In this document: piece by piece, positions 36,201 to 46,305 of the stretch | Layout of the letters: each line of letters opens with the position of its first letter | How positions within the stretch are numbered: position 1 is the stretch's first letter | Source: Bacilli bacterium | GTDB lineage: Bacteria; Bacillota_I; Bacilli_A; RF39; UBA660 | Length of the DNA: 55,044 nucleotides | Direction of reading: 5' to 3' | Assembly: GCA_017511945.1 (NCBI GenBank) | Contig: JAFWHR010000008.1 | Coordinates: 1-55,044, forward strand | Program-made: the position numbers and the translations under genes | The notes under the pieces: generated by a model | Database searches by the model: none | Seen by the model: the letters and a program-made list of their open reading frames with translations, nothing else | What the model was told of the DNA's origin: nothing

Positions 36201-36228
36201 TAAAAACCCCTATTTATTAATAGGGGTT
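36201..36228 (-). terminator. Intrinsic terminator of the GspE/PilB gene
   Basis: AACCCCTATT (36205-36214) and AATAGGGGTT (36219-36228) form a perfect 10-bp stem with TATT loop; the A-tract at 36202-36206 is the U-tract on the minus strand. It overlaps the end of the gene. Confidence 0.85.
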
Positions 36229-37493
36229 CCTAAACTTAAAACTTCATTCTCATTTTTTTTCATCTTTGAAATGGCGAGTTTTAATTCATCATTATTACTT
36301 ATTTGATCATCATCTTCAAGTTCAATTAATTTAATAATTTCTTCAAAACTAGTTTTTCCTTCTAGTACTTTTTGAAGACCATCTTGAAGCATAGTTGTAG
36401 TATCAGTCTCACCATATACCAGTTGTCTAAACTGCTCTTTAGGTGCATCTTCACTTAATGCATCTCTTATTTGCTGAGATATTTTTAAAACCTCATGAAT
36501 TGGTATTCTTCCTCTATAACCTTCATTACAGTGTTCACAGCCTGCAGGAACGTAAATTTGATCAATATCTTTATTTAAAACAGCTTTAAATACTAATTTT
36601 TCATAATTTGTAGTAGGTCTAACAGTTTTACATTTACAAAGTCTTCTGGCGAGTTTTTGTGATATTACTCCTTCTAAAGCAGATGATAATAAATATTTTT
36701 GTACATCCATGTCAATTAACCTTTCAATAGTATTTAAAGAAGTGTTAGTATGAAGTGTTGATAAAACTAGATGTCCAGTTATAGAAGCTCTAACGGCAAT
36801 TCTTGCTGTTTCAGTATCACGAATCTCACCAATCATTATTATATTTGGATCTTGTCTTAAAATAGACCTTAATGCATTAGCAAAAGTAAGCCCAATCTTA
36901 CTATTTGCTTGAACTTGATTTATTCCAGAAATGTCCATCTCGATAGGATCTTCGACAGTGATAATGTTAGTTTCAGAAGTGTTTAAATATTGAAGAATAG
37001 AGTATAAAGTAGTTGATTTACCAGAACCAGTTGCTCCAGTAACTAAGATAATACCATTAGGAACACTAATCATATCTAAAACTTTTCTATAGTTTTCCTC
37101 ACTAAATCCAAGTTCTTCCAATCCCTCAGAACTCATAGAATAATCTAGAATTCTTATAACTACTTTTTCTCCGCCACTCACAGGAAGAGAAGACACACGA
37201 AGATCAAGCTCAACTCCTTGAAGAGTAGCTTTAATTGCTCCATCTTGAGGAAGCCTAGATTCAGTTATATTCATTCTAGCTATAGTTTTAACTCTTGTGA
37301 TTAAATAGTCCCTCATGTTTAAAGGTACATTCGCATAATCATATAAAACTCCATCAACTCTAATTCTTATAAGCAAGTGATCGGTATATGGATCAAAATG
37401 AATATCACTTGCTCCTCTTTTAGTTGCATCTACAAGTATATCATTTACAATATCTACTATTGGTACCTTTTGAAAATCAAACGTTCTTATCAT
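36210..37493 (-). CDS. Type II secretion / type IV pilus assembly ATPase (GspE/PilB)
   Basis: The 427-residue hexameric ATPase powers pilus or pseudopilus extension. Walker A GATGSGKSTT, Asp box and Walker B (ILRQDPNIIMIGEIRDTETA), the His box (HLVLSTLHTNTS) and a tetracysteine zinc site (CKC and CEHCNEGYRGRIPIHE) are intact. It lacks the usual N-terminal GspE_N/MshEN domain and begins directly with the N2 domain (SDIHFDPYTDHLLIRIRVDG). No GspF, prepilin peptidase or PilT is nearby; it is divergent from two pilin-like genes. Confidence 0.9.
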   Translation of the reverse strand: MIRTFDFQKVPIVDIVNDILVDATKRGASDIHFDPYTDHLLIRIRVDGVLYDYANVPLNMRDYLITRVKTIARMNITESRLPQDGAIKATLQGVELDLRVSSLPVSGGEKVVIRILDYSMSSEGLEELGFSEENYRKVLDMISVPNGIILVTGATGSGKSTTLYSILQYLNTSETNIITVEDPIEMDISGINQVQANSKIGLTFANALRSILRQDPNIIMIGEIRDTETARIAVRASITGHLVLSTLHTNTSLNTIERLIDMDVQKYLLSSALEGVISQKLARRLCKCKTVRPTTNYEKLVFKAVLNKDIDQIYVPAGCEHCNEGYRGRIPIHEVLKISQQIRDALSEDAPKEQFRQLVYGETDTTTMLQDGLQKVLEGKTSFEEIIKLIELEDDDQISNNDELKLAISKMKKNENEVLSLGTPINK

Positions 37494-37586
37494 TTTATCA
37501 GCCCCTTTTACAATTTATACTGGATTTTATTCTAGATATATTATATAATATATTTAGGATAAATTCAATTGAAAAGGTGAAAAAAT

Positions 37587-38798
37587 ATGAAAATGAATAA
37601 TAAGGGCTTTTTATTAGTTGAATCTTTAGTAGTTTCAACGTTTGTCTTGACGGTATTAATGCTTTTATATTTGCAGTTTAACAATTTAATGACAAATCAT
37701 AAAAAAAGTTATACCTATAATAGTGTTGAAAATATATATAACTTAGGATCGATGGCTGACTTTTTAAAAAATACTGGTCAAGATGTAACTTTAAAAACTA
37801 GTTTAGGCTCCCAGCACTACATAGTATTATATAACCGTTCTAATTGCGTTAATCTGCCAAATTCAACTACTATTCCTACATGTAATAATCTAGCGGCAAA
37901 TATGAATTTAAAATATATGATATATACAGACTCGGATATAAGTTCTTTAAAAAATTATGTTAAAAACAGTAATGATGCTTTAAAACAGGACATGAAAGAT
38001 TTTATAACTAAAATGGATGCGACTAAAATAGAGGGAAAGGGAAGATTGATTGCTAAATTTGGTGATTCGGTAAATGAAGTAAGTTCTAATGACAAATTTG
38101 CGACAGTTGCAATCGATACTAATACATCATCAGACTATAATATAAGTAACGTCCTTTACAGTTTTTACAAGTTTAGTGATATGAATGTATGGAAGTATAG
38201 TCAGTCAAATGCAGCAGATAAATCCTTAGATTCTTATGCAAGAGGTAGTTTTACAATTAAAAGTTTTAATGAAGGAAATGGACTTAATGAAATTGAGGTA
38301 AAGACAGTTGGCGTCTGGGAACACGTTTATATTCCTTTAACAACTGAACCGAACAAGAATTACACAATTGCCTTTGATTATCAAGTGTTAGAAAGTTATA
38401 CTAATTTATCAGGTAATGATTCAGTTAAACTTCAGATATTATCTAATATTCCTGTAAATTCAAACTGTGAAAATCTTGAAATTGAAAGTATAGATTTAGG
38501 AAACACTTTAATGAACAATTCACAACCAAAAGAAATAACCTTTACAGCATCTAGTACTACGACCTATTTAACACTAAATTTTGGATGGGCTGCCAATAAT
38601 CAAACAGTTAAAATGAGAATAGGAAACTTTAGAGTTCAAAAACAACTAACTAATGAAACTAATTATGGTAATCAGTTAGGTATTGGTATTCCAAACTTTG
38701 GTGGATGGTATACTGAGAAAAATGGTGGAACAAAGATAGAACCTAATACAAATAGATACACAAAAGAAGATCAAGTGTTATATGCGAGGATGAATTAA
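37587..38798 (+). CDS. Prepilin-like protein with carbohydrate-binding-like domain and C-terminal InlB-type repeat
   Basis: The N-terminus MKMNNKGFLLVESLVVSTFV has the class III prepilin cleavage site (Gly7-Phe8) and Glu at +5, followed by the hydrophobic helix. Residues about 195-350 form a beta-rich domain (VGVWEHVYIPLTTEPNKNYT, ITFTASSTTTYLTLNFG, KMRIGNFRVQK) resembling carbohydrate-binding jelly-rolls. The last 30 residues (FGGWYTEKNGGTKIEP, LYARMN) fit the Listeria-Bacteroides/Flg_new repeat. This looks like a large minor pilin with an adhesive head. The next pilin gene is 13 bp downstream. Confidence 0.75.
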   Translation: MKMNNKGFLLVESLVVSTFVLTVLMLLYLQFNNLMTNHKKSYTYNSVENIYNLGSMADFLKNTGQDVTLKTSLGSQHYIVLYNRSNCVNLPNSTTIPTCNNLAANMNLKYMIYTDSDISSLKNYVKNSNDALKQDMKDFITKMDATKIEGKGRLIAKFGDSVNEVSSNDKFATVAIDTNTSSDYNISNVLYSFYKFSDMNVWKYSQSNAADKSLDSYARGSFTIKSFNEGNGLNEIEVKTVGVWEHVYIPLTTEPNKNYTIAFDYQVLESYTNLSGNDSVKLQILSNIPVNSNCENLEIESIDLGNTLMNNSQPKEITFTASSTTTYLTLNFGWAANNQTVKMRIGNFRVQKQLTNETNYGNQLGIGIPNFGGWYTEKNGGTKIEPNTNRYTKEDQVLYARMN

Positions 38799-38811
38799 AA
38801 GGGGAGAGTAT

Positions 38812-39282
38812 ATGAAAAAAAACAAAGGATTTACAGTAGTTGAACTAATCGCATCTTTTGCTCTTACGATGGTAATAGCCGCGTTTCTATTTGAAGTTTT
38901 AATCGACGTAAAAGATGTATTTGCTGAAACCACCATTAAGACTAATATACAAGAAAAAATGGGGATTATATCTAAAAATATAAAAAATGTACTACCTCCT
39001 ATAGGAAGTAAAGTCATAGGAGCTGGAACTTCTTGGCAAATTAGTAATAATAAAAATGGTAATTTAAATTCCGGTATAGGTCTATCATATGATGAGAGTA
39101 GTGTTACTATTAATAATCAAAAGTTTAGTATGCCAGATTTAGTTAATATTGATATGTCTAAAAGTTCTATAACAAATAATTGTCCAAGTGATTGCTTTTT
39201 AAAAGTTCATTTTGAACTAACAAGTAGTAATCTATCAAAGCCTTACATATATGATGTCGTTTATTATTATTCTAAATACTAA
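38812..39282 (+). CDS. Prepilin-like minor pilin
   Basis: MKKNKGFTVVELIASFALTM carries the prepilin cleavage site (Gly6-Phe7, Glu at +5) and the pilin helix. The head is short and beta-rich, with a cysteine pair near the end (NNCPSDCFLKVHF). The 156 residues suit a minor pseudopilin. It is co-transcribed with the large pilin-like protein and overlaps convergently, by 11 bp, the end of the ylbJ-like gene. Confidence 0.8.
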   Translation: MKKNKGFTVVELIASFALTMVIAAFLFEVLIDVKDVFAETTIKTNIQEKMGIISKNIKNVLPPIGSKVIGAGTSWQISNNKNGNLNSGIGLSYDESSVTINNQKFSMPDLVNIDMSKSSITNNCPSDCFLKVHFELTSSNLSKPYIYDVVYYYSKY

Positions 39283-41370: not shown

Positions 41371-41471
41371 AAAAAAAGAGATAGCACCCCCTGAGGGCTA
41401 TCTCCAATAAAAGAATAAAAAGGGGCTGGCTAGTTTGCACTAGCGCCAATTCAATTTAAATTGAATTGGTG
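41371..41471 (-). ncRNA. Candidate small RNA A (minus strand, upstream of recG)
   Basis: A minus-strand unit of about 100 nt with its own promoter and terminator and no credible ORF. From the start near 41471 it contains a perfect 24-bp palindrome (41447-41470; half-site CCAATTCAATTT), a stem GCTAGT/ACTAGC closed by a GCAA tetraloop, an unpaired pyrimidine stretch, and a terminator stem GAGATAGC/GCTATCTC (41404-41397, 41385-41378) followed by seven U. The terminator loop reads CCTCAGGGGGT, the GC-richest stretch here, complementary to an unpaired segment of candidate RNA B beyond recG. Confidence 0.6.
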
Positions 41472-41477
41472 ATTAAT

Positions 41478-41505
41478 ATTATATTGATTTTTTATAATAA
41501 GTCAA
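41478..41505 (-). promoter_or_regulatory. Promoter of candidate small RNA A
   Basis: On the minus strand TTGACT (41505-41500), a 16-bp spacer and TATAAT (41483-41478). Confidence 0.7.
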
Positions 41506-41544
41506 TAGTTTTTTAAAAAAAAGCAAAAAAAAAGGAGAATCTTT

Positions 41545-43527
41545 ATGAAACTGAGTGAAGTCAAAGGTTTGGGAAAAGCGTCAGAAAAATATTTAAATGA
41601 ACTAGGTATTTTTACCACTTTAGATTTAATTAACTATTATCCTTTTAGATATGAGATAATTGAAAATACAGATGTAAGAAAAATTAAAGATGGAGATAAG
41701 ATAATAATAGGTGGCATATGTGAAAAAACTCCGAATGTATATCACTATAATAAAAGATTAAATAAGATGACCTTTAGACTAAATACTGGTGATTTTATCG
41801 TAAAGGTAGATATTTTTAATAGAGGATATTTAAAAAGTAGACTGTCAATTGGAACAGTAATAACAGTTATAGGAAAATATGATCAAAAGCACTCATCAAT
41901 TACCGCATCGGATATTAAATTTTATCTAATTGAAAAAACAGTCATTGAACCGGTTTACCATTCATCTATTAAAATTAGCTCATCTAAAATATCTAAACTT
42001 ATTAAAACAGTCATAGATAAAGTATATGTAGTAGATTTTGTTCCAGATAGTATAAATGAAAAATATAAGTTTATGAGTAAAAAAGAAGCTTTATATAATA
42101 TCCACTTTCCAAAGAGTAAAAAGTCTTTAAATATGGCTATAGATAAATTAAAATATGAAGAATTATTTATGTTTATGATGAAAATTAATTACATAAAAGA
42201 CAGTAAAAAGATAAATGATGGATTAAAAAGAAAAGTAGATTATGAAAAAGTAGAAAACATAATAGATAATTTACCTTTTAAACTTACTAAAGATCAAAAT
42301 AAATCAGTTAGAGATATATATGAAGATTTAATTAGTAATAATAGAATGAATAGACTTCTTCAGGGAGATGTTGGAAGTGGTAAAACTATAGTTTCTTTTA
42401 TATCTTTATACATAAATTATTTAAGTGGATATCAAGGAGCTTTAATGGCACCAACCGAAATACTCGCTCTCCAGCACTACAATAACATAAAAAAGATATT
42501 TCCAAATTTAAACACTGTATTTTTAAAAGGTAAAATGAAAGCTAAAGAAAAAAGAGAAGTTAAACAAATGATAGAAAGTGGAAAAGCAGATGTAATAATT
42601 GGTACTCACGCATTAATTAGTGAAGATGTGAAATATAAAAATCTAGGTTTTGTCATAACTGATGAGCAACACCGTTTTGGTGTAAATCAAAGAGGAAACT
42701 TAAAAAATAAAGGAAAAACTCCTGATATTCTCTATATGAGTGCGACTCCAATTCCGAGAACTTATGCATTAACTTTATATGGAGATATGGATATATCCAG
42801 CATTAGAACTATGCCAAGTGGAAGAAAAAGCGTTAAAACAATACTTAAAAAAAGTAAAGATATAACAGAAGTTTTATACATGATGTTAGATGAGATTAAA
42901 AAAAATCATCAGATTTACGTAGTCGCACCTTTAGTAAAAGAAAGTGAAAAAATAGATTTAGAAGATACTTATAAACTGGAAGAGAAGATGAAAAAAGCTT
43001 TCGGTAAAATATGTAAAATAGGCGTTATGCATGGAAAGATGAATCCAGAAGAAAAAGAGAAGGTCATGGACGAGTTTAAAAAAGGTAACATTAAAATACT
43101 TGTTTCGACAACCGTTATTGAAGTTGGAGTGGATGTTAAAAATGCGACCATGATAGTCATATTTGATTCATATAGATTTGGTCTATCTGCACTTCACCAA
43201 CTTAGAGGAAGAGTAGGAAGAAATGATTATGATTCTTACTGCATACTAATCAGTGATCTAGAGACTAAAAGACTAAACGTTTTAACTAAGACAAATGATG
43301 GATTTAAAATAAGTGAAGAAGATTTTAAACTTAGAGGTGGTGGAGATATATTTGGAATTAGACAAAGCGGAGACATGAACTTTAAACTTGCAGATGTCAA
43401 AGAAGATTACGATTTACTCTTAAAAATAAAAGAAGACAGTTCTAGATTTATTAGAAGTAGTTTGTTTAATGATTCTAAATACTTACATATTAAAAAAGAA
43501 GTAATTAATTCAGTCAATCAAGATTGA
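41545..43527 (+). CDS. recG: ATP-dependent DNA helicase RecG
   Basis: RecG remodels stalled forks and branched DNA. The 660 residues have the N-terminal OB wedge domain, Walker A (QGDVGSGKTIV), TEILALQHY, the DEQHRFG box, MSATPIPRT, and the helicase C-terminal motifs (VSTTVIEVGVDVKNA, QLRGRVGRND) with the RecG-specific end (FKLRGGGDIFGIRQSG). The start ATG 41545 follows AAAGGAGA. It lies between two small-RNA-like units and away from its frequent neighbours. Confidence 0.96.
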   Translation: MKLSEVKGLGKASEKYLNELGIFTTLDLINYYPFRYEIIENTDVRKIKDGDKIIIGGICEKTPNVYHYNKRLNKMTFRLNTGDFIVKVDIFNRGYLKSRLSIGTVITVIGKYDQKHSSITASDIKFYLIEKTVIEPVYHSSIKISSSKISKLIKTVIDKVYVVDFVPDSINEKYKFMSKKEALYNIHFPKSKKSLNMAIDKLKYEELFMFMMKINYIKDSKKINDGLKRKVDYEKVENIIDNLPFKLTKDQNKSVRDIYEDLISNNRMNRLLQGDVGSGKTIVSFISLYINYLSGYQGALMAPTEILALQHYNNIKKIFPNLNTVFLKGKMKAKEKREVKQMIESGKADVIIGTHALISEDVKYKNLGFVITDEQHRFGVNQRGNLKNKGKTPDILYMSATPIPRTYALTLYGDMDISSIRTMPSGRKSVKTILKKSKDITEVLYMMLDEIKKNHQIYVVAPLVKESEKIDLEDTYKLEEKMKKAFGKICKIGVMHGKMNPEEKEKVMDEFKKGNIKILVSTTVIEVGVDVKNATMIVIFDSYRFGLSALHQLRGRVGRNDYDSYCILISDLETKRLNVLTKTNDGFKISEEDFKLRGGGDIFGIRQSGDMNFKLADVKEDYDLLLKIKEDSSRFIRSSLFNDSKYLHIKKEVINSVNQD

Positions 43528-43561
43528 TGTAAAAAGCACACAAATTTTAACTTTAAAATGG

Positions 43562-43590
43562 TTGACTTTTTGTGTTATTTATTTTATACT
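43562..43590 (+). promoter_or_regulatory. Promoter of candidate small RNA B
   Basis: TTGACT (43562-43567), 17-bp spacer, TATACT (43585-43590). The next ORF begins only at 43736, beyond a terminator, so this promoter drives a non-coding transcript. Confidence 0.75.
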
Positions 43591-43596
43591 TTAATT

Positions 43597-43692
43597 GCAT
43601 AGTAATGCTATGCAGACTACTTACGGCACATAGTGAGTAGTTAACCAAACCCCCTGATGCCCTAGTAATTTTTTTACTAGGGTTCTTTTTTT
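43597..43692 (+). ncRNA. Candidate small RNA B (plus strand, downstream of recG)
   Basis: A unit of about 95 nt with a near-consensus promoter and a strong terminator and no ORF. Predicted parts: hairpin TGCATAG/CTATGCA, hairpin ACTACTTAC/GTGAGTAGT (one G-U pair, 8-nt loop), an unpaired C-rich stretch AACCAAACCCCCTGATG, and terminator CCCTAGTAA (43660-43668) / TTACTAGGG (43674-43682) followed by seven T. The segment ACCCCCTGA (43649-43657) is exactly complementary to the terminator loop of candidate RNA A. Its terminator may also end recG transcripts. Confidence 0.65.
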
Positions 43693-44844: not shown

Positions 44845-46305
44845 ATGGAAAACAATATATTAAATGCTCAAGAAGAAGCTATGAAAAAATTAGGTGTTGT
44901 TCTTAAACCAGAATATTCTGAACAATTTAAAATTGATGATACACCTCAAAACACTAATTTAAATGATGAACTTGCAGATATTAGCAGCGTGAATTCAGAA
45001 CCTGTTGTTGTTCCAGAATTTGAATTACCAAAAGTAGAACTTCAAGAAGAAGTGCCTGAGGTTACAATGCCAGAATTTGAACTACCAAAAGAAGAGGTTC
45101 AAGAAGATATGCCTGAGGTTACAATGTCAGATTTTGAACTACCAAAAGAAGAGGCTCAAGAAGATATGCCTGAGGTTACAATGCCAGATTTTGAACTACC
45201 AAAAGAAGAGGTTCAAGAAGAAGTGCCTGAGGTTACAATGCCAGATTTTGAACTACCAAAAGAAGAGGCTCAAGAGGAAGTGCCTGAGGTTACAATGCCA
45301 GAATTTGAACTACCAAAAGAAGAAATTCAAGAAGAAGTGCCTGAAGTTACAATGCCAGATTTTGAACTACCAAAAGAAGAAATTCAAGAAGAAGTGCCTG
45401 AAGTTAGACAGAACGAAGATAAACTTGAGGAGGATGACATGCTCGGTACATATGATAATATAAATAAAGATTTAAATAGTTTAATAAGTTTTGAGACATA
45501 TGATGATTATCTTGTAGAATTTCAAAAACAAAATTATCCAGAAAACCCAGCAGAGTTTTATATTGCAGTTAAAAATGGTGAGAGACTTCCAGAACTATTA
45601 ACTGAAACAGAATTCTATGATGAGAGAAGAAAACAACTAGAAGATATTGAACACGATAAACAGAACGAAAGTATCATTTCACTAACTCAGAAATTACATT
45701 CATGTGAAGGAAAACTTCAAGTTTCTGAAGAACAAAATGCTGAACTTGAAAGAAGAAATAAAAATTTATCTTCTAATTTAAATAGAGAGAGAAGTGAAAA
45801 GCTATCTGCTCAAAATAGAGTGACTGAACTTGAAGATGAACTTAAAAAGAGTAAAACAAGAATTAATACATTAGAAAATACATTAATCAGACAAAAGGAA
45901 AGCGTAAAAGCACAAGGTGAGAAAATTTTTGCTTTGAGAACTACAATTAATAATCAACTAGAAGAGATTAAAAGTGTTAAAGCAATGCTTTCTAATAAAG
46001 ATCTAGAGATAAAATCTTTAAAGGAAGAAAATGAACAGTTAAAAGGAGATAAAAAAGATCTAAAAGCACAAATTAGAGGTTTTGAAACTCAAGTTACAGG
46101 TGCGATTAACAGTATAAAACAAGATGGTTCAAATAAAGAAACAATAGAAACAGGTAAAAAAAAATTGAAAAATCAGAAAACTGAAAGAGAATTGCCTGTA
46201 AATAAGACAAGTCTTTCAAAAAAATCACCCTCAGCAGTTATACTTCCAGGTGATGTTATAGATGCTTTTGAAGAGGTTACAAATACAAAAGGAAAAACTC
46301 GATAA
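44845..46305 (+). CDS. Repeat-containing coiled-coil protein
   Basis: The 486 residues comprise: residues 1-56, a short helical and acidic N-terminus; 57-188, seven acidic 19-residue repeats (consensus PDFELPKEEVQEEVPEVTM); about 195-260, a folded segment (YDDYLVEFQKQNYPENPAEF); and about 265-430, a long coiled coil (KLQVSEEQNAELERRNKNLS onward), then a basic Ser/Lys tail. No signal peptide or membrane helix. The acidic spacer plus coiled coil suggests a cytoskeletal or scaffold role, inferred only from shape. It ends the DUF1292 operon and is followed by a terminator. Confidence 0.75.
   Translation: MENNILNAQEEAMKKLGVVLKPEYSEQFKIDDTPQNTNLNDELADISSVNSEPVVVPEFELPKVELQEEVPEVTMPEFELPKEEVQEDMPEVTMSDFELPKEEAQEDMPEVTMPDFELPKEEVQEEVPEVTMPDFELPKEEAQEEVPEVTMPEFELPKEEIQEEVPEVTMPDFELPKEEIQEEVPEVRQNEDKLEEDDMLGTYDNINKDLNSLISFETYDDYLVEFQKQNYPENPAEFYIAVKNGERLPELLTETEFYDERRKQLEDIEHDKQNESIISLTQKLHSCEGKLQVSEEQNAELERRNKNLSSNLNRERSEKLSAQNRVTELEDELKKSKTRINTLENTLIRQKESVKAQGEKIFALRTTINNQLEEIKSVKAMLSNKDLEIKSLKEENEQLKGDKKDLKAQIRGFETQVTGAINSIKQDGSNKETIETGKKKLKNQKTERELPVNKTSLSKKSPSAVILPGDVIDAFEEVTNTKGKTR
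45013..45408 (+). repeat. Seven tandem 57-bp repeats inside the coiled-coil gene
   Basis: Units begin at CCA GAA TTT GAA... and encode PEFELPK-type 19-mers; the last unit is one codon short. Near-identity at the DNA level, including third positions, points to recent expansion by slippage or recombination, so copy number probably differs between strains. Confidence 0.92.

Follow-up and report, generated by a model that had tools for sequence, protein, structure and literature searches.

Two small RNAs with complementary G-rich and C-rich segments in a family of gut Bacilli, often found around recG, and their possible relation as sponge and regulator

The 55,044-nt stretch of DNA analysed here (the window) carries two short units, A and B, which on the evidence of fold and genome comparison are almost certainly genuine small RNAs and represent two separate RNA families. 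A G-rich segment of A is the exact complement of a C-rich segment of B, and direct pairing between the two RNAs is likely. The reading that explains the observations best, and to which we give somewhat better than an even chance, is that B is a C-rich regulatory RNA and A is a sponge for it, with a G-rich loop as the decoy and a seed of its own for other targets. We hold to the same degree, as part of that reading, that each unit is an independent small RNA acting in trans, and that both are old in the family. That sequestration is the purpose of the pairing is an evenly balanced proposal.

Unit A lies on the minus strand (41371..41473) behind a promoter, TTGACT-16 nt-TATAAT (41478..41505, minus strand), that matches the consensus at 11 of 12 positions; unit B lies on the plus strand (43597..43692) behind TTGACT-17 nt-TATACT (43562..43590, plus strand; 10 of 12 matches). 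Fold, conservation and covariation divide A into hairpin 1, hairpin 2, an unpaired C/U-rich linker and a terminator formed by a G+C-rich stem and a T-run, and B into hairpin 1, hairpin 2, a C-rich linker and a terminator with a 10-bp stem-loop (43659..43683, plus strand). Compared with shuffled sequences, the folds have z scores of -4.7 for A and -6.5 for B. The sequence-only reading had described each unit as having a promoter, two hairpins and a terminator with no convincing open reading frame; these features were all confirmed, the only overlapping frames being chance ones of 30-31 aa. Hairpin 1 of A (41444-41471) is a near-perfect DNA palindrome in the window's genome (CCAATTCAATTTAAATTGAATTGG), and because of this near-palindromic DNA the model of A also gives weak matches on the reverse strand.

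Conservation within the two units is concentrated in a few unpaired stretches. The linker of A (41406..41428, minus strand) is 23 nt long and barely varies, reading CAGCCCCUUUUUAUUCUUUUAUU in the genus of the window (Candidatus Coprosoma) and CAACCCCUUUUUAUUCUUU in most other genomes; it is probably the seed for A's own targets. The loop of hairpin 2 is near-invariant as well. Exact matches to the A linker in a public genome collection were all in metagenome-assembled genomes, labelled Bacilli or assigned to related groups of Bacillota; one of these genomes is named Candidatus Coprosoma. The G-rich segment of A, UCAGGGGGU (41386..41394, minus strand), is placed in the terminator loop by sequence and by comparison; this loop, UCAGGGGG, is kept in most genomes while the stem around it varies freely, and the core CAGGGGG is found there in 110 of 145 genomes. 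In B, the linker ACCAA(A)CCCCCUGA hardly changes across the family, and its C-rich segment ACCCCCUGA (43649..43657, plus strand) is the last conserved stretch before a junction with mobile elements. No other evident small RNA of the window's genome carries CCCCCUGA.

Covariance models for A and B were built from members of the genus. In the genus, A was found in 38/44 genomes (E < 1e-15) and B in 32/44, with divergent copies of B recognised by eye in three more. Across the family the searches found A in 105/117 genomes and B in at least 73/117; the latter count is a lower bound because the B model was trained within the genus. A search of genomes sampled across the class placed A in 34 of 37 other genomes of the family and in none from other families. 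The promoters and terminators of both units can be seen in relatives too, including a TTGACA / TATAAT-like pair 5' of A. In alignments of the matches (85 for B and 96 for A, a few chance matches on the reverse strand among them), 95% of stem positions are paired, with covariation above that of all 500 shuffles. Two-sided changes occur in 14/14 pairs of B and 18/26 pairs of A, more than in nearly all shuffles. Control stems slid along the same alignments were 22-54% paired and showed far less covariation than the true stems; alignments that have been fitted to a structure do favour that structure. Rfam gave nothing credible for either RNA at the gathering threshold or at E values up to 5, and no match to RoxS/RsaE, FsrA, RsaI/RsaOG or any other described small RNA family; a search of the literature for Coprosoma small RNAs also returned nothing. 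A and B are two strongly supported RNA families new to these mostly uncultured gut Bacilli, whose genomes are small (that of the window is 910 kb at about 85% completeness). Second copies of A occur elsewhere in three genomes (G020:C6:9-111, G025:C16:15192-15294 and G413:C11:12740-12839); the first two retain both the linker and the G-rich loop, and the third has an ordinary loop. A weak BLAST match of A at C19 was rejected, as it covers AT-rich upstream sequence only.

The perfect 9-nt complementarity noted from the sequence alone holds: UCAGGGGGU of A (read from 41394 to 41386) and ACCCCCUGA of B (43649-43657) are exact complements, and CCCCCTGA occurs at these two places only in the window (0.28 occurrences expected). 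The window's genome as a whole has six copies of UCAGGGGG or its complement. The A segment had been described as exposed in the terminator loop, which is correct for about five of the nine nucleotides; the remainder are paired in the minimum-energy fold, since three G's form the closing pairs at the top of the terminator stem. Opening the segment is predicted to cost about 5.5 kcal/mol, leaving a net energy of about -10.7 kcal/mol for the 9-bp interaction. The further claim that such a match is unlikely to be casual does not stand on one genome, since 28 of 1000 dinucleotide-shuffled A/B pairs contain a match of at least 9 nt; its weight therefore rests on conservation across genomes. Similarly, the energy of the full-length A/B duplex is unexceptional, with 231 of 1000 shuffles as low or lower.

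The behaviour of the two segments was compared in the 101 genomes in which both A and B could be read. The constant parts, CAGGGGG in A and CCCCCUG in B, are exact complements. Of the 101, 82 have an intact A loop, and B has CCCCC-UGA in every one of these (82/82). The remaining 19 have lost or altered the A loop; 16 of them keep an unchanged B, and in three (G031, G388 and G411, from three genera) B has lost the UGA. There is no genome in which B lacks UGA and the A loop is intact, and this joint deviation has a Fisher p of 0.006 without correction for relatedness. When placed on a tree of the genus built from recG, loss of the A loop maps to several branches. Complementarity is retained where A and B are on different contigs (e.g. 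G345, G369 and G417). Covariation was looked for across genomes within the A/B 8-mer and no compensatory substitutions were found, nor does the pairing length of cognate A and B exceed that of permuted pairs (9.05 versus 9.18). G003 and G026 have the next gene immediately behind recG, and the model detects B neither there nor at any other place in these genomes; the A loop is nonetheless intact.

The sequence-only reading had proposed direct pairing of a regulator and its sponge, and the 82/82 agreement and the three joint deviations argue for it; the 16 genomes in which A alone has changed count against pairing as a fixed feature of the pair. The outcome that the sequence-only reading had named as refuting, a change in one segment while the other stays constant, does occur in these 16 genomes, and the A loop is kept where B is absent in G003 and G026; therefore the pairing is not obligate. 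If A were an optional sponge and B had further targets, the A loop could be lost beside an unchanged B. The asymmetry is in line with a sponge whose decoy is dispensable while other targets constrain the seed of the regulator, although a fit of this kind is not proof. Furthermore, the five G's and the CA of the A loop match what the CCCCCUG of B would require, whereas A's own linker calls for four G's only.

We propose the following mechanism on these grounds. B would regulate mRNAs by pairing of its unpaired C-rich linker with G-rich ribosome-binding sites, a mode of action that is possible for this segment, and A would act on a different set of mRNAs with its C/U-rich linker. The decoy in the A terminator loop would form 8-9 bp with the C-rich segment of B and so sequester it. 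Because the B segment would be held by its other targets, the decoy could be lost without any change in B; once it is gone, the UGA of B would be free to drift. Separately, integrating elements attach at the CCCCCTGA end of the B gene and bring with them a new terminator that leaves B whole.

It is clear that the 3' end of B serves as an attachment site for mobile elements. Similarity between copies of B ends immediately after CCCCCTGA and different terminators then follow; in many relatives other terminators replace the stem-loop that B has in the window. This junction can be seen in the B loci of relatives (L096-L125, L230-L247 and L322-L351) and at 43650-43692 of the window. Integrase genes lie at the B junction in G013, G028, G029 and G059, and are of the tyrosine-integrase type in several genomes; in G024, the kind of terminator that B still has in G015 and G033 is present on a different contig. 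Different genera share the same element ends at B: 23 of 99 genomes have at least 50 of the 60 nt after CCCCC in common with another genus, compared with two ordered pairs in an upstream control. Many contigs break right after B. The elements found at B in relatives carry an Eco57I-type methylase or a protein with a RelA/SpoT domain. Other RNA genes, namely tRNA genes and ssrA, are integration sites at which the element joins the 3' part of the gene; a substitute 3' end comes with the element and allows the RNA to keep its function. B resembles these in the 3' joining and the replaced end; it differs in being a C-rich small RNA whose intrinsic terminator is replaced. The gene of a probable regulatory RNA is here an integration hotspot at which incoming DNA repeatedly replaces the terminator. 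A separate 4.1-kb element is present in the window's genome (G000:C5:12528-16648, equivalent to L377:2029-6149) with TTCAGGGGG at both ends; it encodes a fused EcoRI-type adenine and C5-cytosine methyltransferase, and no integrase was seen inside it.

Part of the conservation at the 3' edge of B may reflect, or be exploited by, integrases. This is the main confounder in treating the 9-mer as a feature of the RNA; the A loop is left unexplained by it, as no element has been seen to use A. Taken to its full extent, this would make the shared segment mainly a feature of the DNA, with CCCCCTGAAG as the core site of an integrase family present both in the 3' end of B and in the terminator hairpin of A, and the A/B match a by-product. 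Besides the attachment at B itself, such an explanation can draw on the element flanked by TTCAGGGGG, which lies in another hairpin-like site of the window's genome, and on several members of the genus in which the A terminator reads, on the other strand, CCCCCTGAAGG, the same as the B junction. We nevertheless regard it as quite unlikely: no copy of A that was examined is interrupted or adjoined by an element end, the terminator stem of A is complete and varies by paired changes, and the B segment is also kept where no element is evident, as in the window.

Alternatively, A and B could both be genuine small RNAs that do not pair in the cell; the A loop would bind A's own linker, as a pseudoknot of AGGGG with CCCCU that hides the A seed, or some other partner, and the CCCCCUGA of B would serve mRNA targets only. 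AGGGG and CCCCU in A are indeed complementary (-7.4 kcal/mol before the cost of opening), and both the ability of A to lose its loop beside a constant B and the equally good match of permuted pairs would be natural outcomes. Self-pairing, however, accounts for four G's and the A, but not for the conserved fifth G or the preceding UC, which fit B exactly; the A linker is invariant with or without the loop; and the joint deviation of A and B in three genera would be left over. On balance the absence of pairing appears rather doubtful. The suggestion, made from the sequence alone, of a type I toxin-antitoxin-like pair takes its appeal from two short complementary RNAs in a shared neighbourhood, but has not survived: no frame exceeds 30-31 aa and none encodes a toxin, the units do not overlap and neither is an overlapping antisense to the other, and either unit can be lost without the other, the two often occupying different contigs. 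Such a pair is most improbable.

The regulator and sponge reading may be extended to an ancient, family-wide circuit of two small RNAs, often placed around recG, in which the hub B doubles as a docking site for mobile elements that sometimes carry modification genes; these elements would repeatedly swap the terminator of B and might tune it, and the A loop would set the amount of free B. As a whole this wider picture is rather unlikely. The narrower proposal of pairing between A and B is a concrete one, and natural variants that have lost the loop, G029 and G032 among them, are available for comparison.

There are precedents for a sponge of this type. In Bacillus subtilis, RosA is a stand-alone small RNA whose G-rich regions pair with C-rich regions of RoxS and FsrA, which are the seeds of these two RNAs for mRNAs (PMC8216469). 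RosA/RoxS and A/B appear alike in having a G-rich stretch in one RNA and an unpaired C-rich seed in the other, with the qualification that the A loop is only partly accessible. RosA is about 229 nt long and A about 103 nt, the two are unrelated in sequence and, unlike RosA, A has a single G-rich stretch inside a terminator loop and a C/U-rich seed of its own. In Staphylococcus aureus, RsaI (RsaOG), of about 110 nt, represses mRNAs by pairing with the Shine-Dalgarno region and binds the C-rich RNAs RsaG, RsaD and RsaE with its G-rich regions (PMC9266662, PMC8216469). RsaI is the closest match to the two-part layout of A, a likeness of arrangement with no relation in sequence or in Rfam.

In the window A and B are separated by recG (41545..43527, plus strand), identified by its Pfam RecG domains. 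DNA similarity places A upstream of recG in most genomes of the genus and B downstream of it in many. In the family, A is divergent from recG and within 600 nt of it in 53 of 107 genomes, and a good number have B about 2.2 kb from A at the opposite end of the gene. Other arrangements exist: in G407 a gap of only about 140 nt, without recG in it, separates A from B; in G388 the two converge immediately behind a RecG-like gene; and in other genomes they are on different contigs. The six genus genomes without A (G001, G004, G008, G009, G027 and G061) gave Mfd-like matches only in a RecG search; therefore recG, A and B seem to be jointly missing there. As a candidate functional partner, recG was set aside, and no link is claimed because A is near recG in just 53/107 family genomes.

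Possible mRNA targets were sought in the window's genome. For B, AGGGGG precedes ATG at 18 sites against 14 in the reversed control, and no enriched set was found. For A, AAAAGGGG precedes ATG at seven sites against two. The best of the seven, AAAAGGGGCUG (37499..37509, minus strand), lies in the ribosome-binding region of the gene for a PilB/ComGA-like ATPase, where 11 bp could form with the A linker at a predicted -25.3 kcal/mol; an extension to 11 bp among seven sites has an estimated chance of about 5%. This gene is a lead from one genome only as a putative target of A, and in the loci of relatives that were examined pilB is not near A. The gene belongs to a type IV pilus/competence-like cluster (36210-39282), with the PilB/ComGA-like ATPase on the minus strand and two prepilin-like genes on the plus strand. 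Two start sites in the cluster carry AAAAGGGG, the pilB site and that of the prepilin-like gene at 38812. Elsewhere in the window, 44845-46305 encodes a predicted protein with several near-identical tandem repeats of the PEFELPKEEVQEEVPEVTM type followed by a coiled-coil-like stretch.
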